Source of the DNA: a virus
Virus record (IMG/VR): IMGVR_UViG_3300025896_000115
Location: 1 to 31,957 of that record
Length of the DNA: 31,957 nt
Reading direction: 5' to 3' (one strand)
In this document: piece by piece, positions 1 to 7,422 of the stretch
Numbering within the stretch: position 1 is the stretch's first letter
Layout: each line of letters begins with the position of its first letter
Notes under the pieces: generated by a model
The model's input: the letters and a program-made list of their open reading frames with translations, nothing else
Database searches by the model: none
Told to the model about the DNA's origin: nothing
Program-made: the position numbers and the translations under genes

Positions 1-322
1 ATCCTGGATATGAAGATTGTCCTGATCCATACCATTTTAATGTTAAATTAAGAGGAGCTGATCCAATATACGTTATTTGACCTGTACCCCAAATTCCTGT
101 CATTCCAGATATTTTAGTCATTGCAAGACTGCTTAAACTGGGACTAAAAAGACCAGATACTGATGGATATATTCTATTATATCCATAAAATTCAGAAATT
201 GAATCTTTTATAACATATCCTGCAAATGAAGATATATCTCGCATTTTTACATTTAATAATGGTTTACATTGCTCGCGAGCAACCTGTCCCATTGATATTG
301 AACCACTATAAGGTATTGACAT
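1..322 (-). CDS. Structural (tail fibre or baseplate-like) protein, N-terminal part
   Basis: The reading frame starts at ATG 322 and stays open to the left edge, giving 107 residues, so the 3' end lies outside the window. It begins MSIPYSGSISMGQVAREQ. Short 'P-x-SGxIS(M/L)' openings of this kind are common in phage fibre and structural proteins that carry glycine- and serine-rich repeats. The rest is rich in S, G, Y and T, as in beta-rich virion proteins. I cannot name the protein. The start follows an A/T-rich leader without a Shine-Dalgarno sequence, like its neighbours. Confidence 0.6.
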   Translation of the reverse strand, partial: MSIPYSGSISMGQVAREQCKPLLNVKMRDISSFAGYVIKDSISEFYGYNRIYPSVSGLFSPSLSSLAMTKISGMTGIWGTGQITYIGSAPLNLTLKWYGSGQSSYPG

Positions 323-347
323 TTTAATATATTATTTAAAGTATATA

Positions 348-854
348 TTAAAATAAATAAGGTCTCCAATTATCTGGGATATATGATACTGATTTCATTA
401 ACATTAAATAATGAGGTCTTACAGGTACTGGAATTTCTTTACCAAACTCCTCTAATGTTAAATCTGCCTTTTCACCATTACATTTTCCACATGCAGTAAC
501 AAGATTATCCCATGCGTTAGGTCCACCCTTTGATTGTGGAATCACATGGTCAATTGTAAGTTTTCTGGCATTATTATTATAACCACAATATACACATGTA
601 TGATTATCTCTTTTAAAAATATTTTCTCTTGTTAATGGAACTTTATGAATGCGAGTATGCACGTACTTAGGTACTCTAATAACTGAAGGTTTATAAATTA
701 CAAGTTCTGGGTCCGCGACTTTAAACTGTACATCAAAGTTTTCAACGACACTTGCATTTCCTTTATAAATAATTGAGAAAGCTCGCAAACTACTAATAAT
801 GCTTCTTGGCATAAAACTCGAATCAAGCACGAGCGTCTTTGAATATTTGTCCAT
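348..854 (-). CDS. HNH endonuclease
   Basis: A 168-residue HNH nuclease. The zinc-binding pairs are C87-x2-C90 (CVYC) and C122-x2-C125 (CGKC), and the HNH core is DHVIPQSKGG from residue 102 with N126 following. The preceding segment HKVPLTRENIFKRDNHTC is typical of free-standing bacterial and phage HNH proteins (McrA/COG1403 group). The frame is open up to 926, but the extra 24 codons run through the tRNA-Gln gene, so the ATG at 854, just downstream of the tRNA, is the sensible start. Its position at the end of the tRNA array fits a homing-type or DNA-processing nuclease. The substrate is unknown. Confidence 0.88.
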   Translation of the reverse strand: MDKYSKTLVLDSSFMPRSIISSLRAFSIIYKGNASVVENFDVQFKVADPELVIYKPSVIRVPKYVHTRIHKVPLTRENIFKRDNHTCVYCGYNNNARKLTIDHVIPQSKGGPNAWDNLVTACGKCNGEKADLTLEEFGKEIPVPVRPHYLMLMKSVSYIPDNWRPYLF

Positions 855-869
855 TTTAATTATAATTTG

Positions 870-940
870 TTGGTCTATAGGGACTCGAACCCCAAACGAC
901 TGCACCAAAAACAGTTGTGTTACCATTACACCATAGACCA
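870..940 (-). tRNA. tRNA-Gln(TTG)
   Basis: Full cloverleaf: a perfect 7-bp acceptor (TGGTCTA/TAGACCA), D-loop with GG, anticodon loop TTTTGGT and canonical T-loop TTCGAAC. CCA is not encoded. It is the last tRNA of the array in the direction of transcription. Confidence 0.93.
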
Positions 941-974
941 GTTTAATTCTTATTTATATATTGGTAATAATTTG

Positions 975-1046
975 GGTGTTAGGACGGTACTGCCCCGTCT
1001 TCTCAAGATTCACAGTCTTGCACTTCACTAAAAAGCTTCAAACACC
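975..1046 (-). tRNA. tRNA-His(GTG), abnormal D- and T-loops
   Basis: Anticodon arm CAAGA-CTGTGAA-TCTTG gives GTG (His). An extra G at position -1 faces C73, as His tRNAs require. The acceptor pairs except for one T-T. The D-arm GCTT-TTTAGTG-AAGT lacks GG. The T-arm has a perfect 5-bp stem but its loop is GGCAGTA, so T54-T55 is absent while C56 is kept. Confidence 0.72.
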
Positions 1047-1052
1047 ATATTG

Positions 1053-1121
1053 TACCGACTACAAGTTACGCTCTTGTCTGAAAATACTTATGAGATATTT
1101 TCGATCCTAGATCAAATCGGT
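1053..1121 (-). tRNA. tRNA with CAT anticodon, reduced D-arm and abnormal T-loop
   Basis: Acceptor ACCGATT/AGTCGGT forms 7 pairs and is followed by A73. The anticodon arm AATAT-CTCATAA-GTATT gives CAT. The D-arm shrinks to GATC-TAG-GATC, with a three-base loop. The T-stem ACAAG/CTTGT is perfect but the loop is AGCGTAA instead of TTCRAAT. It could be Met or Ile2 (lysidine). Confidence 0.65.
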
Positions 1122-1127
1122 AATTGT

Positions 1128-1211
1128 GGAAAGCAGAGGTATCGATCCCCATGCGAATTAACGCACGATTCGCTTAGCAAGCGGTCCTGAATCCTATTCA
1201 GTTTACTTTCC
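1128..1211 (-). tRNA. tRNA-Ser(GCT)
   Basis: Class II tRNA of 84 nt with acceptor GGAAAGT/GCTTTCC, D-loop containing GG, anticodon loop TTGCTAA (GCT), a long variable arm and T-loop ATCGATA. It is a conventional serine tRNA apart from the A at position 54. Confidence 0.88.
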
Positions 1212-1217
1212 ATAATG

Positions 1218-1291
1218 TAGTCAATGTAAGACTCGAACTTACGACCCTCGCAGTATCAGTGCGATGCTCTAACCAACTGAGCTAATTGACT
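1218..1291 (-). tRNA. tRNA-Ile(GAT)
   Basis: Perfect acceptor AGTCAAT/ATTGACT with discriminator A, D-arm GCTC-AGTTGGTTA-GAGC, anticodon loop CTGATAC (GAT) and T-loop TTCGAGT. All stems pair. Confidence 0.95.
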
Positions 1292-1421
1292 ATTTAAGAG
1301 AGGCTTCGGGTATTTCAGGGTTTCTGGTTAAGTGCAATGAGTGACGTCTGTTTACTATAAACCCTTTTTCGACAATTAATACACTCTACTTCTCAACTAC
1401 AGCTTCACTACCTCTCCTTCG
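1292..1421 (-). other. Structured spacer, possible tRNA-like RNA
   Basis: No ORF or canonical tRNA is seen. On the minus strand a 7-bp pairing, GAGAGGT with GCCTCTC, spans about 120 nt. Inside it GGGTTT pairs with AAACCC around a loop that includes GTTTA-TAG-TAAAC. Length and end pairing suggest a structured RNA, but no T-arm or convincing anticodon arm can be drawn. Confidence 0.3.
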
Positions 1422-1497
1422 TACCTCCAGTGGGAGTTGAACCCACAAAATCTTCTGATCCTAAGTCAGACGGCTTTTCCAGTTTGCCCATGGAGGC
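1422..1497 (-). tRNA. tRNA-Leu(TAG)
   Basis: Acceptor GCCTCCA/TGGAGGT with A73, anticodon arm TCTGA-CTTAGGA-TCAGA (TAG), perfect T-stem GTGGG/CCCAC and T-loop TTCAACT. The variable region is only about 7 nt, short for a leucine tRNA. Confidence 0.88.
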
Positions 1498-1593
1498 ATA
1501 AAGCCAATCCCGTAGATTGGCAGCTCAACTTTAGGTATTGAGTTTGCAAGAATAAATCTCTGACCAGGTCATGCGTCCTTTGGGCGCCGACAG
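1498..1593 (-). other. Inter-tRNA spacer with strong hairpin
   Basis: At 1503-1521 a perfect 7-bp hairpin, GCCAATC-TACGG-GATTGGC, is followed on the minus strand by TTTAT. It sits directly before the tRNA-Leu gene and could be a weak terminator or processing signal. Upstream of it CTCAA/TTGAG and a GCG-CC/GG-CGC hairpin can be drawn. No tRNA or ORF is assigned. Confidence 0.35.
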
Positions 1594-1664
1594 TGCCTTG
1601 TAGTGGAATCGAACCACTGCCATTTCCATGTAAAAGAAATACGCTTCCATTACGCCAACGAGGC
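1594..1664 (-). tRNA. tRNA-Val(TAC)
   Basis: Acceptor GCCTCGT/ACAAGGC has one C-A mismatch at the fifth pair. The anticodon hairpin has loop TTTACAT (TAC), the D-loop contains GG, and the T-arm CAGTGG-TTCGATT-CCACTA is canonical. Confidence 0.86.
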
Positions 1665-1709
1665 CGGTCGACTCCGATTTTTACAGAACGTTGTCGAAGT
1701 AAACTGTTG

Positions 1710-1780
1710 TACCCCTTGTAGGTAATGCTCCTACTTCCCGATATTAAAAGTATCGTGCTTCACTTTAAAGCCTAAAGGGC
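1710..1780 (-). tRNA. tRNA-Lys(TTT), abnormal D- and T-loops
   Basis: Acceptor GCCCTTT/AAGGGGT (two wobbles) with A73. The anticodon arm CGATA-CTTTTAA-TATCG is perfect and gives TTT. The D-arm GCTT-TAAAGTG-AAGC is perfect but has no GG. The T-stem GTAGG/CCTAC is perfect but the loop is AGCATTA. The D-loop ends AGTG as in the His gene. Confidence 0.72.
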
Positions 1781-1977
1781 TTGCCTTTTAAGAGTTTTTA
1801 TAGAACTCAAGGACAGAACGCCCTATAAACTATTCACAGTGACTGTAAGGGGATTCGAACCTAAAATGAATACTAACTCGCGACACTTTCATCATTTCCT
1901 TAAATTAACCTAGCCGTATTAAAGGCACCCAGTTTACCGGTGGGCTGTGCTTCCCTGCACATGTACAATCATTTAGT
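1781..1977 (-). other. Spacer with orphan T-arm and long tRNA-like fold
   Basis: The block at 1844-1970 opens with GATTGTA, which pairs fully with TACAGTC about 110 nt later. Between them lie a GTGC-AGGGAA-GCAC hairpin, a CCCA/TGGG hairpin whose loop contains GGTAAA, a GCC/GGC hairpin like a variable arm, and a canonical T-loop TTCGAAT with a poor stem. It resembles a class II tRNA carrying about 40 extra bases before the T-arm. Confidence 0.35.
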
Positions 1978-2047
1978 AGCGGATTAAGGACTCGAACCTC
2001 GCCTCTGGGTTATGAGCCCAGAATGCTAACCATTTACACTAAACCGC
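1978..2047 (-). tRNA. tRNA with CAT anticodon (Met or Ile2)
   Basis: Acceptor GCGGTTT/AATCCGC has one T-T mismatch. The anticodon arm CTGGG-CTCATAA-CCCAG is perfect, the D-loop contains GG and the T-loop is TTCGAGT. Three or four CAT tRNAs occur in the array. Which is initiator, elongator or lysidine-modified Ile cannot be decided from sequence alone. Confidence 0.88.
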
Positions 2048-2058
2048 AGTATATCTTG

Positions 2059-2130
2059 TAGTCAATAAAGGATTCGAACCCTTATTTCCGGGTTCGAAGC
2101 CCGTTGTTCTATCCATTGAACTAATCGACT
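2059..2130 (-). tRNA. tRNA-Arg(TCG)
   Basis: Acceptor AGTCGAT/ATTGACT with A73, D-loop with GG, anticodon hairpin CGGG-CTTCGAA-CCCG (TCG) and T-loop TTCGAAT with a good stem. Confidence 0.92.
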
Positions 2131-2135
2131 AATGG

Positions 2136-2209
2136 TGGTCCATTCAGGATTCGAACCTGAGACCTTCTCGTTATGAGCGAGCTGCTCTAACCAACTGAGC
2201 TAAAAGACC
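2136..2209 (-). tRNA. tRNA with CAT anticodon (Met or Ile2)
   Basis: Acceptor GGTCTTT/ATGGACC (one T-T), D-arm GCTC-AGTTGGTTA-GAGC, anticodon loop CTCATAA on stem CTCG/CGAG and T-arm TCAGG-TTCGAAT-CCTGA. It is a conventional elongator-like tRNA. Confidence 0.92.
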
Positions 2210-2329
2210 AAATAAATAATAAGTCGTTCCAGACCGAACTATTAGGAACTATTAGAGCTTCTCGGACGAGGTGCACAACTCATAACGGCTATGATATATT
2301 ATCTGTTACTTGGCTCCACCACATAGGAA
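2210..2329 (-). other. Inter-tRNA spacer, no assignable gene
   Basis: No ORF or tRNA is seen. The plus strand carries the directly repeated octamer ACTATTAG (around 2239 and 2249) and a small CTCG/CGAG hairpin. A weak GGAGC/GCTCT end pairing can be drawn over about 65 nt. Density of structure suggests another degenerate RNA, but I cannot support one. Confidence 0.25.
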
Positions 2330-2397
2330 TTATTGAACAGGATTCGAACCTACCTAATTAATATATGCCTATATTAATGTTCACAGTATATCAACTT
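2330..2397 (-). tRNA. tRNA-like RNA without D-arm
   Basis: It has T-arm GTAGG-TTCGAAT-CCTGT with canonical loop and a partly paired acceptor (GTTGA/TCAAT). In place of the D-arm is the linker TATACTGTGAAC. The linker is followed by a perfect 9-bp hairpin with tetraloop GGCA. The linker resembles TATTCTGTGTA of the 59-nt RNA at 2540-2598. No readable anticodon loop. Confidence 0.45.
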
Positions 2398-2405
2398 ACT
2401 ATTTG

Positions 2406-2476
2406 CACGTATAGAGAGGTTCGAACTCCCATCAACAGTTTTGGAGACTGTCATGCTACCATTGCACCATATACGT
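2406..2476 (-). tRNA. tRNA-Trp(CCA)
   Basis: Perfect acceptor ACGTATA/TATACGT with discriminator G, as tryptophan tRNAs require. Anticodon arm ACAGT-CTCCAAA-ACTGT (CCA), D-loop with GG and T-loop TTCGAAC. Confidence 0.95.
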
Positions 2477-2539
2477 ATTATCAAAGTTTAATCCAGTTTT
2501 TAGATCGCTATTAATATCTTTGTTCCATACTCTTGGAAT

Positions 2540-2598
2540 CTGATGTGAAGGAATCTAACCTTCCTAGAACCGCCGTTCCATACACAGAATAACATCTA
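2540..2598 (-). tRNA. 59-nt compact tRNA-like RNA, no D-arm
   Basis: The layout is exact: acceptor TAGATGT/ACATCAG (one mismatch), an 11-nt linker TATTCTGTGTA, a 16-nt hairpin TGGAAC-GGCG-GTTCTA, one base, T-arm GAAGG-TTAGATT-CCTTC and the acceptor 3' strand. It shares this layout and length with the RNA at 3360-3418. The hairpin closes to a tetraloop, so no ordinary anticodon is displayed. Not a plain pseudogene, since all remaining stems are well paired. Confidence 0.6.
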
Positions 2599-2664
2599 TT
2601 TCCTACCATTTGGAGATAACTTTCGTCTGTCATCTTATTCAACCTTACATGATTAAACTTTTTG

Positions 2665-2745
2665 TGGGACACTATGGAATCGAACCATACCTTCTTACAG
2701 AACGATTTTACAGACCGCTTATCACACCAGTGACTGAAGCATCCC
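2665..2745 (-). tRNA. tRNA-Tyr(GTA)
   Basis: Acceptor GGGATGC/GTGTCCC with A73, anticodon arm GCGGT-CTGTAAA-ATCGT (GTA), a short class II variable arm (TTCT/AGAA) and T-arm TATGG-TTCGATT-CCATA. The 46 nt up to the next tRNA contain a separate ACACTT/AAGTGT hairpin. Confidence 0.87.
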
Positions 2746-2791
2746 AATTACACTTTCCATAGTTGGCTGTCTAAGTGTGAAACCCTGTTCG

Positions 2792-2863
2792 CTGGCCCGG
2801 CAGGAATCGAACCTGCATAAGATGATTAACAGTCATCCGTAATAACCCTTATACGACAGGCCA
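2792..2863 (-). tRNA. tRNA-Asn(GTT)
   Basis: Acceptor TGGCCTG/CGGGCCA with discriminator G, anticodon arm GATGA-CTGTTAA-TCATC (GTT), D-loop with GG and T-arm GCAGG-TTCGATT-CCTGC. Confidence 0.94.
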
Positions 2864-2867
2864 ATTT

Positions 2868-2955
2868 AAATCAATTTTCGGGAGCTTCACCCGCCTTCTA
2901 TATACTGGTACCTCTCAGTTAAGAGTCAGTACGAGCTTTTTACTTTAATTGATTT
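2868..2955 (-). other. 88-nt structured RNA closed by a 9-bp stem
   Basis: The perfect end pairing AAATCAATT/AATTGATTT looks like an acceptor stem. Inside are a CTCT-TAACTG-AGAG hairpin flanked by GTAC/GTAC, and a CGGG-TGAAGCT-CCCG hairpin in the position of a T-arm. The T-loop is not canonical and no anticodon can be read. Possible degenerate or rearranged tRNA. Confidence 0.35.
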
Positions 2956-3103
2956 TGCTGACTAATAAGGATTTGAACCTTAATCCCGTGTCCGCCCTCG
3001 GTCACTTCCGTACCTACTAACTTCTACTGTGCACCATACACCATAATCATTCCGATGGTTTCGAACCCATCCGTCTTAGGATTAATTACTTCTTAAGATT
3101 TGT
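2956..3103 (-). other. Spacer with two orphan T-arms
   Basis: Two canonical T-loops occur here: TAAGG-TTCAAAT-CCTTA at about 2967-2983, and GATGG/CCATC closing a GTTCGAAA loop at about 3053-3070. Neither has an acceptor 5' strand at tRNA distance upstream. Before the first lies a strong hairpin (GTG-A-CCG-AGGG-CGG-A-CAC). They could be tRNA 3' halves or remnants. Confidence 0.4.
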
Positions 3104-3180
3104 TGCGATTAGAGGATTTGAACCTCTGGAGGGTATATCTACCGATACGGCTCATGAGACCGTCTCTGACCAACATCGCA
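3104..3180 (-). tRNA. tRNA-like RNA with CAT hairpin and long variable region
   Basis: Acceptor TGCGATG/AATCGCA pairs at six positions and T-arm AGAGG-TTCAAAT-CCTCT is perfect. Only about 10 nt (TTGGTCAGAG) separate the acceptor from hairpin ACGGT-CTCATGA-GCCGT, so no D-arm fits. A 19-nt variable region holds GGTA-GATA-TACC. Read as a tRNA the anticodon is CAT, but CAT with a class II arm is odd, so the identity stays open. Confidence 0.55.
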
Positions 3181-3186
3181 TTTAGT

Positions 3187-3261
3187 GTCTTTGTATGGGA
3201 TTCGAACCCATTGTCTTCGGGCTGGTCGCCCGCGTTCTCCGCCAGATAAACTAAACAAAGC
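3187..3261 (-). tRNA. tRNA, identity uncertain (loop CGACCAG)
   Basis: T-arm ATGGG-TTCGAAT-CCCAT is perfect, the acceptor GCTTTGT/ACAAAGA lacks only the first pair, and the D-loop contains GG. The anticodon hairpin CGGG-CGACCAG-CCCG would present ACC (Gly) but has G instead of the near-invariant T33. Confidence 0.6.
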
Positions 3262-3359
3262 AATCAATTAAAATTACAGAAATTAGTGTCGACAAATTTC
3301 TTTAAGCTATATACAATCTTAATCGTTAGGAAGACATTGCTGATCAGGCATCTTCTTTG
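3262..3359 (-). other. Spacer with paired 61-nt element
   Basis: At 3265-3325, CGATTAA and TTAATTG pair over 7 bp at the ends of a 61-nt segment. It contains hairpin AGAAAT/ATTTCT, whose 12-nt loop includes TTGTCGA. No T-arm is present. Next to it lies a TGC-CTGATCA-GCA hairpin inside a GAAGA/TCTTC stem. No ORF. Confidence 0.3.
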
Positions 3360-3418
3360 TGGATAGAAAGGATTCGAACCTTTTGTTTGTACTGTACAAC
3401 TTTAACCAGACCTATCCA
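3360..3418 (-). tRNA. 59-nt compact tRNA-like RNA, no D-arm
   Basis: The acceptor TGGATAG/CTATCCA is perfect over 7 bp and the T-arm AAAGG-TTCGAAT-CCTTT is perfect with a fully canonical loop. Only an 11-nt linker (GTCTGGTTAAA), a 16-nt hairpin (TTGT-ACAGT-ACAA core) and one base lie between them. The segment lengths equal those of the RNA at 2540-2598. If it decodes, the central triplet would be CAG or ACA, neither with a standard loop. Confidence 0.68.
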
Positions 3419-3664
3419 GAGCTGCAGCTCTGTTATAACATCATACATCAACCTCCAAATGCTTTCCCTTTGACTATTACGGATGTGGATTTGAACCACA
3501 TTATTCAGTTACCTATGCCTTTACTTTAAGCTGCCTTATTGCTAAGGTTTCGAAGCTCATTTTTGATTAGGTAGCGAGCCCATCTCCAACGTCTTAAAGT
3601 ACTTGTGAAAATTAAGCTAAGACCATTGCAATCCTAGGGTTAAACCTGCCCTTGCTTGTTTTCG
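3419..3664 (-). other. Spacer with degenerate T-arms, no complete tRNA
   Basis: Contains a perfect T-arm TGTGG-TTCAAAT-CCACA (about 3484-3500) and a weaker one, TGAG-CTTCGAAAC-CTTA (about 3543-3559). A third candidate near 3632 has loop TTTAAC. I could find no acceptor 5' strand or anticodon arm for any of them. No ORF. Best read as tRNA 3' halves or decayed tRNAs. Confidence 0.35.
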
Positions 3665-3738
3665 ATATTATGGAAGGACTCGAACCTTCATCCATCTACC
3701 CAGAATTGGTAGTGCTATCACCTCTCAGCCACATAATA
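3665..3738 (-). tRNA. tRNA with unusual anticodon loop (AATTCTG)
   Basis: The acceptor TATTATG/CATAATA is perfect, D-arm GCTG-AGAGGTGA-TAGC contains GG, and T-arm GAAGG-TTCGAGT-CCTTC is canonical. The anticodon stem CTACC/GGTAG closes the loop AATTCTG, which has A at position 33. Standard numbering reads TTC (Glu), but a one-base shift gives TCT (Arg). A normal tRNA-Glu(TTC) lies at 3839-3908, so this may be something else. Confidence 0.75.
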
Positions 3739-3762
3739 AACTTAGTCTTTTCCTTACCTCTT

Positions 3763-3831
3763 AATAATTATAATTGCTAATCTGATGTTACTTTCAGATG
3801 CTTACCAAAATCATACTTTGGAATAATTATT
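3763..3831 (-). tRNA. 69-nt tRNA-like RNA with two hairpins
   Basis: A 9-bp end stem (AATAATTAT/ATAATTATT) encloses only two hairpins. They are CCAAA-GTATGAT-TTTGG, which would show ATG with a normal T33, and ATCTGA-AAGTAACA-TCAGAT in the T-arm position. One base separates the end stem from the first hairpin, so there is no D-arm. No canonical T-loop. It resembles the arm-deficient tRNAs of animal mitochondria in outline only. Confidence 0.42.
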
Positions 3832-3838
3832 AAATTGT

Positions 3839-3908
3839 ACTGCCATGGAGAATCGAACTCCAATTTTATGGATGAAAACCATAGGTCCTAACCGTTAGAC
3901 GATGGCAG
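3839..3908 (-). tRNA. tRNA-Glu(TTC)
   Basis: Acceptor CTGCCAT/ATGGCAG perfect, anticodon arm TATGG-TTTTCAT-CCATA (TTC), D-loop with GG and T-arm TGGAG-TTCGATT-CTCCA. It is the first tRNA downstream of the promoter module at 3957-4025. Confidence 0.94.
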
Positions 3909-3916
3909 CATTTAAA

Positions 3917-3947
3917 TTATTATCAATATGTCAAATAACGTTTGTTT
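3917..3947 (-). repeat. 31-bp direct repeat, copy 1
   Basis: Identical at 30 of 31 positions to 4496-4526. It lies in the leader between the host-type promoter module and tRNA-Glu. Confidence 0.95.
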
Positions 3948-3956
3948 TAATTTCTT

Positions 3957-4025
3957 ATACAAATATAACTATAATATTTGAACCATGAAAACTTTTTTGC
4001 ATTTATTTTCAAAAATTATTAACAA
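3957..4025 (-). promoter_or_regulatory. Host-type promoter module, copy A
   Basis: The minus strand contains TTATATTTGTA at 3957-3968, an exact match to the Bacteroidota -7 box TAnnTTTG. The upstream block holds CAAATATTATAG, AAAAAAGTTTT and TTTGAAAATAAATGC. The same arrangement occurs before the sigma gene (8925-9000) and in shorter form at 13361-13414. It probably drives the tRNA block from Glu onward. Confidence 0.65.
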
Positions 4026-4030
4026 TTTTG

Positions 4031-4102
4031 AGCGACTAGACAGAATCGAACTGTCATCTTCAGATTGGAAGTCTGAAGTAATAACCATTATACGATAGTC
4101 GC
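4031..4102 (-). tRNA. tRNA-Gly(TCC)
   Basis: Acceptor GCGACTA/TAGTCGC perfect, anticodon hairpin CTTCAGA-CTTCCAA-TCTGAAG (TCC) and T-arm GACAG-TTCGATT-CTGTC. Confidence 0.94.
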
Positions 4103-4112
4103 ATTACATGTG

Positions 4113-4186
4113 AGCCTCTTGTAAGATTCGAACTTACGACATGCACATTACAAATGTGCTGCTCTGGCCAACTGAGCTAAAGAGGC
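4113..4186 (-). tRNA. tRNA-Thr(TGT)
   Basis: Acceptor GCCTCTT/AAGAGGC perfect, D-arm GCTC-AGTTGGCCA-GAGC, anticodon arm GCACA-TTTGTAA-TGTGC (TGT) and T-arm GTAAG-TTCGAAT-CTTAC. Confidence 0.95.
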
Positions 4187-4189
4187 AAA

Positions 4190-4250
4190 ATCTAATTCTA
4201 TGCAGCCGTTTTTCCACAAACGACCCTATGTATTAGTAACAGTCTCCTAG
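4190..4250 (-). other. Extended hairpin RNA between tRNA-Thr and tRNA-Pro
   Basis: The 61-nt gap folds on the minus strand into one long helix. CTAAT/ATTAG is at the base and GGTCGTTT-GTGGAA-AAACGGCT at the tip, with internal loops between. No tRNA or ORF. It has the size of the compact RNAs elsewhere in the array but no T-arm. Confidence 0.3.
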
Positions 4251-4326
4251 TCGGGTAGGCAGGATTCGAACCTGCGTGCTCTAGCGTCCAAGGCCAGCGA
4301 GATAAACCTGACTCCTCTACTACCCG
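4251..4326 (-). tRNA. tRNA-Pro(TGG)
   Basis: Acceptor CGGGTAG/CTACCCG perfect with A73, anticodon arm CTGGC-CTTGGAC-GCTAG (TGG) and T-arm GCAGG-TTCGAAT-CCTGC. Confidence 0.93.
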
Positions 4327-4338
4327 AAATTTAATTTG

Positions 4339-4409
4339 TTGCCTATGGAAGTACTGACCTTCCTCCGATGCTGTCAAAGAGCATTGTACCACCTTTATAC
4401 GAATAGGCA
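4339..4409 (-). tRNA. tRNA-Gln(TTG), second copy, abnormal T-loop
   Basis: Acceptor TGCCTAT/ATAGGCA and anticodon arm ATGCT-CTTTGAC-AGCAT (TTG) are perfect. The D-loop has GG, yet the T-loop is GTCAGTA on a perfect 5-bp stem. The other Gln tRNA at 870-940 has the same anticodon and a normal T-loop. Confidence 0.8.
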
Positions 4410-4417
4410 AGATATTG

Positions 4418-4490
4418 TGGATCCTGTAGGAATCGAACCTACTCCTCTAGTTCTTCAGACTAGCGTACGCACCAGCTATACAAAAGATCC
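4418..4490 (-). tRNA. tRNA-Phe(GAA)
   Basis: Acceptor GGATCTT/AGGATCC with A73, anticodon arm CTAGT-CTGAAGA-ACTAG (GAA) and T-arm GTAGG-TTCGATT-CCTAC. Confidence 0.94.
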
Positions 4491-4495
4491 ATCTA

Positions 4496-4526
4496 TTATT
4501 ACCAATATGTCAAATAACGTTTGTTT
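4496..4526 (-). repeat. 31-bp direct repeat, copy 2
   Basis: Matches 3917-3947 at 30 of 31 positions. It fills the gap between tRNA-Cys and tRNA-Phe almost exactly. It may be a duplicated leader or a processing or promoter element. Confidence 0.95.
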
Positions 4527-4527
4527 G

Positions 4528-4599
4528 AGTTCAGTATTGGAATCGAACCAATCTCTCAGGGTTTGCAACCGCTGCGCCTAACCAATCGGCCAACTGAAC
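4528..4599 (-). tRNA. tRNA-Cys(GCA)
   Basis: Acceptor GTTCAGT/ACTGAAC perfect, anticodon loop TTGCAAA (GCA) on a stem with one mismatch, and T-arm ATTGG-TTCGATT-CCAAT. First tRNA of the main array in transcription order. Confidence 0.92.
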
Positions 4600-4610
4600 C
4601 TGTAAAATCA

Positions 4611-4643
4611 AAAAAGGACCAATCATTTCTGAAAGGTCCTTTT
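4611..4643 (-). terminator. Rho-independent terminator
   Basis: The stem AAAGGACC/GGTCCTTT closes a 14-nt loop and is followed on the minus strand by a run of T. It separates the small ORF at 4668-4796 from the tRNA array. Confidence 0.8.
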
Positions 4644-4667
4644 GAATATTGTATATGTTAATAGTGA

Positions 4668-4796
4668 TTAGCTCATACTAACATTTCTTTTTTCAAAAAG
4701 ACCAAAACCCTGTTCCCCATTATAAAAGGGACATATTGTGCCTACCATCCCTAGGGTTGGTTGATTACTAATAATATGTTTTTGAGTCGTTTGCAT
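4668..4796 (-). CDS. Small protein of 42 residues, unknown
   Basis: ATG 4796 to TAA 4668. The product starts MQTTQKHIISNQPTLGMVGT and ends in a glycine/aromatic segment, YNGEQGFGLFEKRNVSMS. It has its own transcription unit: the TAGATATATAA promoter motif about 50 nt upstream, an A-rich leader, and a strong terminator 25 nt after the stop. There is no transmembrane segment and I do not recognise it. The isolated unit argues that it is real; lack of any recognisable domain is the main doubt. Confidence 0.5.
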   Translation of the reverse strand: MQTTQKHIISNQPTLGMVGTICPFYNGEQGFGLFEKRNVSMS

Positions 4797-4819
4797 TTTG
4801 TTATTTTATTCTCTATAAA

Positions 4820-4842
4820 AACAAGAGTGTTAATGTTCTTGT
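4820..4842 (-). terminator. Terminator or leader hairpin
   Basis: On the minus strand ACAAGA-ACATTAACAC-TCTTGT is followed by TTTTTA. It would end the DUF4326 transcript. It also lies just downstream of the TAGATATATAA motif, so it would sit in the leader of the small ORF. Confidence 0.6.
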
Positions 4843-4858
4843 GTTAATTATATATCTA
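4841..4858 (-). promoter_or_regulatory. TAGATATATAA motif, putative phage promoter
   Basis: The minus strand reads TAGATATATAATTAACAC. The same core occurs before the GIY-YIG, tape measure, tube and sheath genes. Confidence 0.5.
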
Positions 4859-4903
4859 TATATCTTTTTGTTTCAGCAAATTTATACTTTTTTTAAATTA
4901 TTT

Positions 4904-5206
4904 TCAAAAAAGTTCATTCCCATACGTTTTTAATATCTTTATGATAATATCACCATGACATGGACCTGGTTTACACCAACATCCTAATGTCTTTCCTTTT
5001 AATTCTTGTAAACTTTCCATCAGTTCACTATTCGAAAGTAAATATTTTTCGTATGCACTTATTGCTTCCTTTGTTGTATTTACCTTAAATTCAGCAAGAG
5101 TACCTTGTTTATGTGAATATGGATTTCCCCAAATACTATTTTTACCTCTTCCTATGTAAATATCATATGGTTCTTTATTTATATGTACTACTCTTGTATT
5201 ACTCAT
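4904..5206 (-). CDS. DUF4326 domain protein
   Basis: A 100-residue protein that matches the DUF4326 family in its hallmark segments: RVVHINKEPYDIYIGR near the N-terminus, the GNPY segment near residue 28, and the C-terminal GCWCKPGPCHGD. The cysteine/histidine cluster suggests metal binding. The molecular function of the family is unknown; it is frequent in phages. Its start overlaps the end of the upstream GIY-YIG gene by 8 bp, so the two are translationally coupled. It ends in TGA, unlike most genes here, which end in TAA. Confidence 0.85.
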   Translation of the reverse strand: MSNTRVVHINKEPYDIYIGRGKNSIWGNPYSHKQGTLAEFKVNTTKEAISAYEKYLLSNSELMESLQELKGKTLGCWCKPGPCHGDIIIKILKTYGNELF

Positions 5207-5870
5207 TTAATTCTTGTAATCGAAACCCTTTATGAATTTTTGTTAAATCTTTAGAGGTTCGTCTCATTAATTTTGGATTTAAATTATGAATTCTACAAAA
5301 TTCTCTAAGACCTTTTATTTCTATTTCGTGTCCATTAGGAAAAATTACTATCCATTTTTTTGATATAGGATTATCCTTTCCTTTATTAACATTGCGACCT
5401 TTATTGCCATTAGATATAGCATTCCTATGCTCAACTGTTAATTTTCTACCAGTTAGTGTTTTAGAAATTTTATCTCTAACATCTTGCCTAAATGAACCAT
5501 TATTTAATTTAAGTTTTACTATTATTTTAGCTTTAACATCGGGCCTATGAACTGGATTTAAATCTCCATATGCAAATCCATCACCCCCCTTCGTCATATT
5601 ATAACCGATTGTAGGATTGCTTGTTTTAAATAAATCTATATAAAATATCTCAGATTCACTTAATTCTGTTCCACTAAAACATTCTTTTAATACTTCCCAT
5701 TTAAATGAATCTTTACCATATTTTTTGATTGCTTTTTGAAAATATGTGATTGGTTTATCAAAAGAATAATGTTCTGTCCTTCTACGTGATAAACCCTTTG
5801 TGGTTTTACCTATATATGATTTCCTATTTATAATATTAGTAGCTATATAAATTACACCGAATACTTGCAT
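5199..5870 (-). CDS. GIY-YIG homing-type endonuclease
   Basis: A 223-residue protein. The N-terminal GIY-YIG nuclease domain has GVIY at residues 5-8, SYIG at 18-21, and a conserved Arg/His region (SRRRTEHY). The second half has short NUMOD-like DNA-binding repeats (HRPDVKAKI, LTGRKLTVEHRNAISNGNKG) and a C-terminal helix-turn-helix-like stretch. Seg-type free-standing homing endonucleases of T4-like phages have this layout. It is preceded by TAGATATATAA and by a lone tRNA-Arg, and overlaps the DUF4326 gene, suggesting a small mobile unit inserted beside a tRNA. No intron is visible. Confidence 0.88.
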   Translation of the reverse strand: MQVFGVIYIATNIINRKSYIGKTTKGLSRRRTEHYSFDKPITYFQKAIKKYGKDSFKWEVLKECFSGTELSESEIFYIDLFKTSNPTIGYNMTKGGDGFAYGDLNPVHRPDVKAKIIVKLKLNNGSFRQDVRDKISKTLTGRKLTVEHRNAISNGNKGRNVNKGKDNPISKKWIVIFPNGHEIEIKGLREFCRIHNLNPKLMRRTSKDLTKIHKGFRLQELNE

Positions 5871-5880
5871 ATTAGTTTTA

Positions 5881-5893
5881 TTTTATATATCTA
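5881..5893 (-). promoter_or_regulatory. TAGATATATAA motif upstream of GIY-YIG gene
   Basis: The minus strand reads TAGATATATAAAA, 11 nt before ATG 5870. It is the same core motif as before the sheath, tube and tape measure genes. Confidence 0.45.
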
Positions 5894-5955
5894 GAAAACT
5901 TTGAGGAATTACCTCACTTAGTAGGTTCTTTATTTATATGTACATTTTTATTTTG

Positions 5956-6029
5956 TGATCCAGGAAGGATTCAAACCTTCGACCTACACATTAGAAGTGT
6001 GTTGCTCTATTCAGCTGAGCTACTGGACC
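5956..6029 (-). tRNA. tRNA-Arg(TCT)
   Basis: Acceptor GGTCCAG/CTGGATC with A73, D-arm GCTC-AGCTGAATA-GAGC, anticodon arm ACACA-CTTCTAA-TGTGT (TCT) and T-arm GAAGG-TTTGAAT-CCTTC. It stands alone, 1.4 kb from the main array. Confidence 0.94.
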
Positions 6030-6040
6030 GTTTGTTAACA

Positions 6041-6394
6041 TTATATATTAACTTCTATTTTTGTTTCAAGGGCTTTGATATGTTTACAATGTCCTCTTCT
6101 AAATGAAGATGCTGGACAATTACAATTCCATTGACCTCTTTTAAATGTAACTAAATATTCCGACTTTCCATTTGATGATGGTACTTTAAATTCTAGATCC
6201 TTTTGGGATGTTTTAGATGTCTCCACCGATACTATCCCTGGTTCAATTGTTATATCATCTGAAAATTCTATATCCTTTCGTGTTGTTCCTTCATCAACAG
6301 GGATCCATCCTGGACAGACGTATGTTCCACTGATAGTTCTTAGTATTCCAAAATCTTTAAATACAGCAGGCCTAGGTATTTTATATTTAGTCAT
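6041..6394 (-). CDS. SWIM zinc-finger protein
   Basis: A 117-residue protein. The C-terminal third holds a SWIM zinc finger with CxC...CxH spacing in WNCNCPASSFRRGHCKHIKAL (about residues 91-111). SWIM fingers mediate protein or nucleic-acid contacts in SWI2/SNF2, MuDR and archaeal and phage proteins. The N-terminal part (PRPAVFKDFGILRTISGTYVCPGW) is not recognised. It has its own unit: a terminator and a host-type -7 box (TTATATTTACAT) lie directly upstream. tRNA-Arg follows 11 nt after the stop and may be co-transcribed. A nucleic-acid-binding role is likely but not shown. Confidence 0.75.
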   Translation of the reverse strand: MTKYKIPRPAVFKDFGILRTISGTYVCPGWIPVDEGTTRKDIEFSDDITIEPGIVSVETSKTSQKDLEFKVPSSNGKSEYLVTFKRGQWNCNCPASSFRRGHCKHIKALETKIEVNI

Positions 6395-6402
6395 GTTCTT
6401 TA

Positions 6403-6416
6403 ATTTATATGTAAAT
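6403..6416 (-). promoter_or_regulatory. Host-type -7 promoter box
   Basis: The minus strand reads TTATATTTACATAT, matching TAnnTTTR of Bacteroidota promoters. It comes right after the terminator of the ATP-grasp gene and 10-20 nt before the SWIM gene. Confidence 0.5.
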
Positions 6417-6421
6417 ATAAC

Positions 6422-6452
6422 TAAAAAAAGCCAAACAAAAAAATGTTTGGCT
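6422..6452 (-). terminator. Rho-independent terminator
   Basis: The stem AGCCAAACA/TGTTTGGCT is followed on the minus strand by TTTTTT. It ends the ATP-grasp gene. Confidence 0.85.
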
Positions 6453-6477
6453 ACCTATTTTCAAAAAAATTTAAAAT

Positions 6478-7422
6478 TTATTCTATTTCAAATCTTTCCT
6501 TATCAAGCGACAACGTCTTTTTGTCAAGATACTCACTTAATTTAGTAAGTTCTTTATCTGTTTCATCATTAACAGTACGGCCATTAAAATCTGCAAATAA
6601 CTGTCTATAGATTTGAACAGTTGAATCAAACGGAACACCCGGTTGACTATTACTTTCAATCACATATAATTTACCTGATTTATCTTCCATTATATCAAAA
6701 CAAATATATGGAAGGTCTGAGAATATTTTACCAAATTTTTCTACAAGTATATTAAATTTCTCTGGAATTTTAGTAATATCTCTTTTAATATATTTAAACT
6801 CCATTTGTTCTTTTCCATCTCCATCTCCTGATTTTGCCTTATCATTCATTGGTTGTCTTTCCATCCAAAAGAATGGTTTGCCTTTAAACGTAATTAATCT
6901 ATGCTCACTTTCTTTATCAACATACTCTGAATAAACATCAAGTTTTGAGTGATCTGCTGCATCCCATGATTTTTGGTCCTTAAAGATTTGAATCCCAAGT
7001 CCTGAATGTCCTTCTGCTGGTTTTCCAATTAATGGAAATCCTATCTCTAATGCCTTTTCTTTATTATCGACTGTTTTTGGAATGTTTTCATCTCCATCAA
7101 CTAATTTATGAAACTCTGCCTTAGAACCTGATTGCTTAATAAATTCTGGAAGATTATATATGTTTTCCTTTTTAATTAAACCTTCATCTAAAAGCTTCTG
7201 AGTTACCTTAGAATTGTATGTAAGGATAGGTAGGTCTGGATTTATACTAATATCTTTATAGTTTTCAAGTGTAACCTGTGTAAAAAAATTGTCACACGCG
7301 AAGTCCTTATAAGACCACCATCTATGTCCACTATCTGGATCTATTGCTAAGTAAATTTTATGCAAGTCAGAAGTACCCTCCTTTTCAGCAATAAACTGTT
7401 CAAATAATTTAATTCTTTTCAT
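6478..7422 (-). CDS. ATP-grasp ligase-like enzyme with capsid-targeting-like N-terminus
   Basis: A 314-residue protein of the ATP-grasp superfamily (RimK/glutathione synthetase-like). The nucleotide-binding loop is GKPAEGHSGLGI at 133-144, acidic metal-binding residues are in FDIMED, and the final VIESNSQPGVPF (about 262-273) carries the E-x-N pair that binds Mg-ATP. These enzymes join a carboxylate to an amine; the substrate here is unknown. The N-terminus MKRIKLFEQFIAE resembles the T4 capsid-targeting peptide (MKTYxEFIxEA), also seen in the gene at 26948. If cleaved after FIAE, the enzyme would be packaged in the head. That localisation is inference. Confidence 0.78.
   Translation of the reverse strand: MKRIKLFEQFIAEKEGTSDLHKIYLAIDPDSGHRWWSYKDFACDNFFTQVTLENYKDISINPDLPILTYNSKVTQKLLDEGLIKKENIYNLPEFIKQSGSKAEFHKLVDGDENIPKTVDNKEKALEIGFPLIGKPAEGHSGLGIQIFKDQKSWDAADHSKLDVYSEYVDKESEHRLITFKGKPFFWMERQPMNDKAKSGDGDGKEQMEFKYIKRDITKIPEKFNILVEKFGKIFSDLPYICFDIMEDKSGKLYVIESNSQPGVPFDSTVQIYRQLFADFNGRTVNDETDKELTKLSEYLDKKTLSLDKERFEIE

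Follow-up and report, generated by a model that had tools for sequence, protein, structure and literature searches.

The DNA analyzed here, referred to as the window, is a virus record of 31,957 bases. Its tail-sheath and terminase genes are those of a phage with a contractile tail. Among named phages, the tail sheath is closest to those of huge uncultured phages (462-735 kb), of Flavobacterium phage MaF61, and of Tenacibaculum phages, which makes a host among the Bacteroidota likely. A tRNA island runs along the minus strand from ~6030 to 870. Besides the 19 calls made by ARAGORN, the island holds many tRNA-like elements without an ARAGORN or Rfam call. An initial annotation described two D-arm-less RNAs of identical layout, element A (2598-2540) and element B (3418-3360), both on the minus strand. 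Of this pair, B proved to be real; A has a 5-bp acceptor, lacks C74, and is missed by the covariance model built for B (R1). The features are listed below, with related contigs designated by L numbers.

2483..2661, minus strand: multi-branched RNA of ~180 nt enclosing element A; homologs in L073, L052, L067, and L054
2540..2598, minus strand: element A, a T-like hairpin and a tetraloop hairpin; not hit by R1, no C74, acceptor not conserved
3357..3366, minus strand: acceptor 3' strand CTATCC of B, A73, then C-A-A; 18/18 copies end in A/G-C-N-A
3360..3417, minus strand: core of element B, a D-stem-less and anticodon-less tRNA-like RNA of 58 nt, from G1 to A73
3367..3383, minus strand: T-arm AAAGG-TTCGAAT-CCTTT; 4/5 stem pairs covary
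3385..3400, minus strand: middle hairpin GTT-GTA-(CAG)-TAC-A-AAC in the anticodon-arm position; 5/6 pairs covary
3401..3411, minus strand: unpaired linker GTCTGGTTAAA in the D-arm position, 11 nt, retaining the GG of the D-loop
3412..3417, minus strand: acceptor 5' strand GGATAG, paired with 3366-3361; 6/6 pairs with two-sided changes (18 copies)
3418..3431, minus strand: leader hairpin AGAGC-TGCA-GCTCT, abutting the acceptor; stem pairs 1, 3, and 4 covary (14-18 distinct copies)
3435..3606, minus strand: structured non-coding stretch upstream of B, common to other phages
3500-3484, minus strand: T-hairpin TGTGG-TTCAAAT-CCACA, inside the 3435..3606 stretch

The leader hairpin lies directly upstream of B and had been missed in the initial annotation. 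Its loop TGCA, and with it the palindrome CTGCAG, is kept in all B copies. Six pairs of the acceptor that was first described as perfect do form (GGATAG/CTATCC); the seventh uses the last T of the adjoining hairpin and is absent in relatives. With a 6-bp acceptor, the coaxial stack is therefore 11 bp instead of the usual 12. The reported perfect T-stem and TTCGAAT loop are present when the arm is read on the minus strand, and a perfect 5+7+5 T-arm with a TTCRANY loop is found in every B copy. The lack of a D-arm was also confirmed, as the 11-nt linker shows no covarying stem across 18 copies. The linker ends in GGTTAAA, its length is constant in all copies, and its variants are GTNNGGTTAAA and, in one copy, TTTTGGTTAAA. 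The middle hairpin consists of a 5-6-bp stem and a loop of variable sequence (CAG, CAAG, GCAC, CGTAG, AGT, GAC, CTG, and CGG). Because this loop is only 1-5 nt long and differs between phages, B contains no anticodon, and it cannot decode.

Neither A nor B is called as a tRNA by ARAGORN, and the canonical tRNA model RF00005 finds neither 3360-3418 nor 2540-2598, even with the cutoff relaxed to E<=10. R1 matches the window copy of B with 96.8 bits (E 9.9e-16). Dinucleotide shuffling of the island, repeated 300 times, never produced a 7/7 acceptor with a TTCRANY T-arm at the spacing of B.

Twenty-nine related contigs were gathered through a protein neighbor, and B was present in several of them. 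Further copies were obtained by pattern scans of all viral contigs and by covariance searches of whole records, giving a total of 28 IMG/VR contigs with 18 distinct copies. The latest pattern scans fixed three short anchors, CTGCAG, GGTTAAAG, and GTTCGAATC, so that the invariance of these letters is partly built in; the anchors are also kept in the copies found by the covariance model alone.

With the 18 copies aligned on their structure, 393 of the 396 base pairs form; helix-strand shuffles reach 294 on average and 316 at most. Two-sided changes are seen in 18 of the 22 pairs, with substitutions that are not all independent since the copies are mutually related. For 10 copies aligned with MAFFT, 97.7% of the cells pair, 12/22 pairs show two-sided changes, and the covariation score reaches 0.512, falling to 0.174 in shuffled and to at most 0.10 in slid alignments. 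Compensatory changes, whose absence from homologous loci would have counted as a refutation in the initial annotation, are present in all B helices, namely the leader hairpin, acceptor, middle hairpin, and T-stem. Covariation by itself cannot tell an RNA from DNA palindromes; B is argued to be an RNA because the four helices form a tRNA-half arrangement. Taken as a whole, B is almost certainly a conserved phage RNA with a tRNA-half structure. The earlier suggestion of a tRNA mimic keeping the acceptor/T-arm half therefore holds for B, with its pairing, T-arm, and tail preserved, and does not extend to A. The letters of the acceptor and T-stem vary freely among B copies, while the shape, the GG, the T-loop, and the tail are kept. 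Identity among the copies falls to background, from 0.63 to 0.26, right after C74.

The tail was compared with those of 496 full-length tRNA-like elements from the related contigs and the tRNA islands examined. C74 is encoded in 489 of these and a C-N-A tail in 407, in DNA that is 15.8% C; CCA is encoded in only 28. A discriminator followed by C74, as in the tRNAs of this clade, is found in 18/18 copies of B. The rule is not followed by element A, by a further candidate (element C), or by the T-hairpin at 3500. CCA is not encoded at the 3' end of B; a PolyA_pol/CCA-adding domain occurs among the proteins of 9 of 18 related records. The A/G-C-N-A tails, the C74 rule of the clade, and the CCA-adding domain are indirect evidence that the B 3' end may be handled as a tRNA end. 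In ordinary phage tRNAs, the GGTTAAAGT of the linker makes up the D-arm's 3' half, so B is probably derived from a tRNA in which the 5' half of this arm was lost. The initial annotation had raised decay, to be recognized by full-length tRNAs at the same site in related phages. None is present among the 18 distinct copies, and the recurrence of the same D-less form in every relative rules out ongoing decay.

In whole virus records, a single B copy is present in 13 of the 18 records of the first set, one of the 18 adding a weak second match on ordinary tRNA-like sequence, and 5 of the 24 records of the second set have one copy each. Most searched records thus carry one copy or zero. B is situated within tRNA islands in the window, L013, L077, L080, L081, L085, L094, L097, L119, and L121. 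It is found outside them, between protein genes, in L015, L016, L018, L078, L079, L110, L111, L113, L124, and L125, and it stands alone in L110, L111, and L113. The stretch upstream of B is 88% identical to L013 over 258 nt, and this non-coding block is common to islands and unlinked sites. Homology of the window to the unlinked contexts of L015, L016, L018, L078, and L079 stops at the B 3' end. In L094, L100, L110, and L111, the upstream block is missing or replaced, and the leader and B are intact. The B module of L110 begins 9 nt past the stop codon of a 35-amino acid ORF, which precedes B at larger distances in L111, L117, and L123. A small ORF with the pattern MED.N.FYEWML...LADN..M.KAF was noted upstream of stand-alone B (L110 726-833, L111 514-621, L117, and L078). 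In L024 (15550-15592), B is cut down to an acceptor closing a hairpin (GGATAGGTCTGGTTTCTATCC) with the leader intact; the loss of everything else shows that the module is dispensable.

Searches of 50,697 annotated phages and of bacterial genomes gave no match to B, no Rfam family matches it, and a D-less tRNA mimic in phages was not found in the accessible literature. One Calditrichia genome matched the leader pattern, a hit dismissed as chance since no B sequence follows it. Likewise, L093, L092, L095, L096, L098, and L099 matched the linker pattern only, and several of these are ordinary tRNAs. We rate B as new to Rfam, annotated phages, and the accessible literature, and as belonging among the known tRNA-like structures.

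Element A has a different identity. The tetraloop hairpin reported for it is present (TGGAAC-GGCG-GTTCTA), and it is accompanied by a T-like arm, GAAGG-TTAGATT-CCTTC, whose loop fails the TTCRANY test. The 7-nt acceptor strands claimed for A do not hold up: they consist of a T.G pair, an A.A mismatch, and GATGT/ACATC, with 5 contiguous bp. In shuffled islands, an A-type acceptor (at least 6/7) together with a T-stem at the spacing of A would turn up 0.76 times per island by chance; requiring the middle hairpin as well lowers this to 0.02. R1 gave no match to A at E<=10. The window can be aligned from 2662 to 2475 with L073, L052, L067, and L054 over ~190 nt, and the homologs have in common the helices P1 (AAAGTTTAATC/GATTAAACTTT), P2 (AGGTTG/CGATCT), and P3 (GATGAC/GTTATC). 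P1 covaries, and folding of the window copy yields a z score of -3.19. The middle of this ~180-nt RNA is variable; the A acceptor is lost in L073, and L052 has a D-arm-like GTAG-AGTGGTA-CTAC. A covariance model of the RNA (R2) matches only 4 of 31 records besides the window, plus one marginal match. Since R1 misses A, the A acceptor is not kept, and the enclosing helices differ, A, as judged from these alignments, is a T-hairpin domain of a ~180-nt RNA unrelated to B.

A two-member class of A and B was therefore rejected, A being missed by R1 and sitting inside another RNA. The interpretation of A as a class II tRNA with the hairpin as variable arm is unsupported, as the homologs form a closed ~180-nt RNA. 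Element C (~2390-2325) was considered as a third D-less RNA and dismissed because its strands turned out to be part of an RNA of ~190 nt with the closing helix AATAAGTTG/CAACTTATT. This conserved RNA lies at 2403-2214 on the minus strand and has a closing helix of 9-11 bp and an inner T-loop hairpin (8 sequences aligned). A stretch of ~720 nt in L073 (13200-13920) is non-coding and by eye strongly structured; it starts with an A-type RNA and has no match in Rfam.

The best-known tRNA mimics released by tRNA enzymes come from the animal transcripts MALAT1 and NEAT1. One of them, mascRNA, has the layout 7 / 11 / 15 / T-arm 17 / 7 (PMC11693755). It is cut from MALAT1 by RNase P, RNase Z, and the CCA enzyme. 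Compared with mascRNA and menRNA (from MALAT1 and NEAT1/MEN-beta; RF01684), B has the same order of parts in near-equal sizes, 6 / 11 / 15-18 / 1 / 17 / 6. In both mascRNA and B, there are two Gs in the D region, and a long stem with a compact loop replaces the anticodon arm (PMC11693755). The animal mascRNA has a small D-stem and a 7-bp acceptor; in the phage RNA B, no D-stem covaries, the acceptor is 6 bp, and the leader hairpin is a fixed part. Processing is demonstrated for mascRNA, whereas B is known here from its sequence. RF01684 does not match B, its only weak match lying over a real tRNA at 873-938.

The tRNA-like domain of tmRNA has an acceptor, a T-arm, and a D-loop without a stem. 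In contrast, B is contiguous within 58 nt and has no inserted tag frame or pseudoknot domain; no tmRNA was called in the window by ARAGORN. Bacterial Y RNAs (YrlA, RF02553) contain a tRNA-like module, an example of mimicry without decoding. YrlA was not found at B, and its sole weak match (E 0.11, 2106-2164) lies over ordinary tRNAs. Certain animal mitochondrial tRNAs lack the D-arm (PMC7609411), and these decode, whereas B has no anticodon loop. The phage RNAs GOLLD and ROOL resemble B in being non-coding RNAs that adjoin tRNA islands, and GOLLD sometimes has tRNAs in its linker (PMC12286853). The Rfam models of GOLLD and ROOL gave no match in the window at the gathering threshold, and a permissive search found neither in window positions 1-6500 or in the stretches from L013, L015, and L073.

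We infer that B is transcribed and recognized by tRNA enzymes, and that it may act as a tRNA-like module that sets or protects RNA ends through them, a function to which we give somewhat less than an even chance. In such a mechanism, the leader hairpin would be followed by an acceptor/T-arm minihelix, with a short hairpin in place of the anticodon arm, and the GG of the stemless D-loop remnant could dock into the T-loop. RNase P would recognize B at its 5' side, and RNase Z, exonucleases, and the CCA-adding enzyme would act at its 3' side. B would thereby define or protect an RNA end in long phage transcripts, the role that mascRNA has at the MALAT1 3' end. The free change of the acceptor and T-stem, with shape, GG, and T-loop kept, suggests that B would be read by generic acceptor/T-arm-reading enzymes rather than by one synthetase. 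This pattern of a generic substrate and the close layout of mascRNA are the reasons for favoring this function. Against it count the leader hairpin, which touches the presumed RNase P site, the 6-bp acceptor, the unencoded CCA, and the loss in L024. The upstream sequence also differs between phages, and thus no single RNA needs B as its 3' end.

A less probable account is that B is a free decoy or sponge of ~60 nt, which would be matured like a tRNA and occupy a host factor that binds the acceptor/T-arm, such as EF-Tu, the CCA enzyme, or a tRNA-attacking defense toxin, without offering a cleavable anticodon. The tRNA-like tail, the solitary modules of L110, L111, and L113, the single copy per record, and the absence of the anticodon targeted by anticodon nucleases agree with a decoy. 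However, the freely varying acceptor letters copy no specific synthetase or tRNA identity, and a decoy has no place for the conserved leader hairpin.

Slightly less probable again is that B is never excised and serves as a fixed structural part of some larger non-coding RNA of the phage, in which the leader and T-loop would make tertiary or dimer contacts. The CTGCAG palindrome is constant while its stem varies, which would suit dimer contacts, and the upstream block shared by islands and unlinked sites and the other ornate RNAs of related phages (for example L073 13200-13920) fit with this role. The four contigs in which that block is absent or replaced next to an intact leader and B argue against it, and the C-N-A tail is left unexplained. 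It is very improbable that B is a decaying tRNA gene; the D-arm remnant and the further deletion in L024 are what decay would leave behind, but compensatory changes maintain 393/396 pairs in 18 distinct copies, with 0 full length. Least credible is the phage class of minimal tRNAs proposed initially, working like the D-arm-less animal mitochondrial tRNAs: the D-arm is absent and the acceptor and T-arm are intact, but the varying loops of 1-5 nt are unrelated between phages and lack both an anticodon and the 7-nt anticodon loop with U33.

Returning to the setting of RNA ends, we put forward, more tentatively than that function itself, that B represents an undescribed RNA family in large tailed phages, probably of Bacteroidota, present both within tRNA islands and after protein genes. 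It would be an independently evolved, mascRNA-like mimic that hijacks host tRNA-processing enzymes to set transcript ends. If so, a phage family with almost the layout of mascRNA would be an independent invention, and it would offer a simple system in bacteria for finding the smallest part of a tRNA that suffices for the processing enzymes. The phage tRNA islands contain conserved RNAs that tRNA finders have overlooked or misnamed.

Several other RNAs were observed in the island and in relatives. Upstream of B in L015 (576-660), L024 (15380-15470), and L078 (10590-10690) lies a motif resembling the HDV ribozyme, similar in 10 loci and absent from the window, with P1 GGTATC/GATACT, a P3 loop TCCNCGT, J4/2 C-Y-A-A-G, and P2 TCAAAC/GTTTGA. 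For comparison, theta ribozymes occur beside phage tRNAs (PMC10879173). In the window, a second and unrelated D-stem-less candidate is situated at 3180-3103 (minus strand), a tRNA-like element with the 7-nt loop CTCATGA (CAU). Only 10-11 nt, including a GG, separate its acceptor from the anticodon stem, which covaries between window/L013 and L024; the element is also found in L005, L012, and L097. When further D-less tRNAs were sought by requiring a 7-nt anticodon loop and complete pairing of the inner acceptor, most of the hits were ordinary tRNAs that had been misread. At 3261-3187 (minus strand), the anticodon stem of a "tRNA-Gly(ACC)" called by ARAGORN closes on a 5-nt loop, which is replaced by tetraloops in the related elements of L013 and L094; the element is tRNA-like and of full length but has no anticodon. 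Unusual T-loops (AGCATTA, GGCAGTA, and GTCAGTA) and short D-loops ending in GTG are seen in the Lys(TTT)-, His(GTG)-, and Gln(TTG)-like tRNAs at 1775-1690, 1045-972, and 4405-4333 (minus strand); the D-loop TG could pair with the T-loop CA. All three are missed by ARAGORN, and two recur in L024. Finally, L013 (15015-15135) contains a tRNA-Leu-like gene with an anticodon loop of ~46 nt, a possible insertion, that scores 38.7 bits in Rfam.
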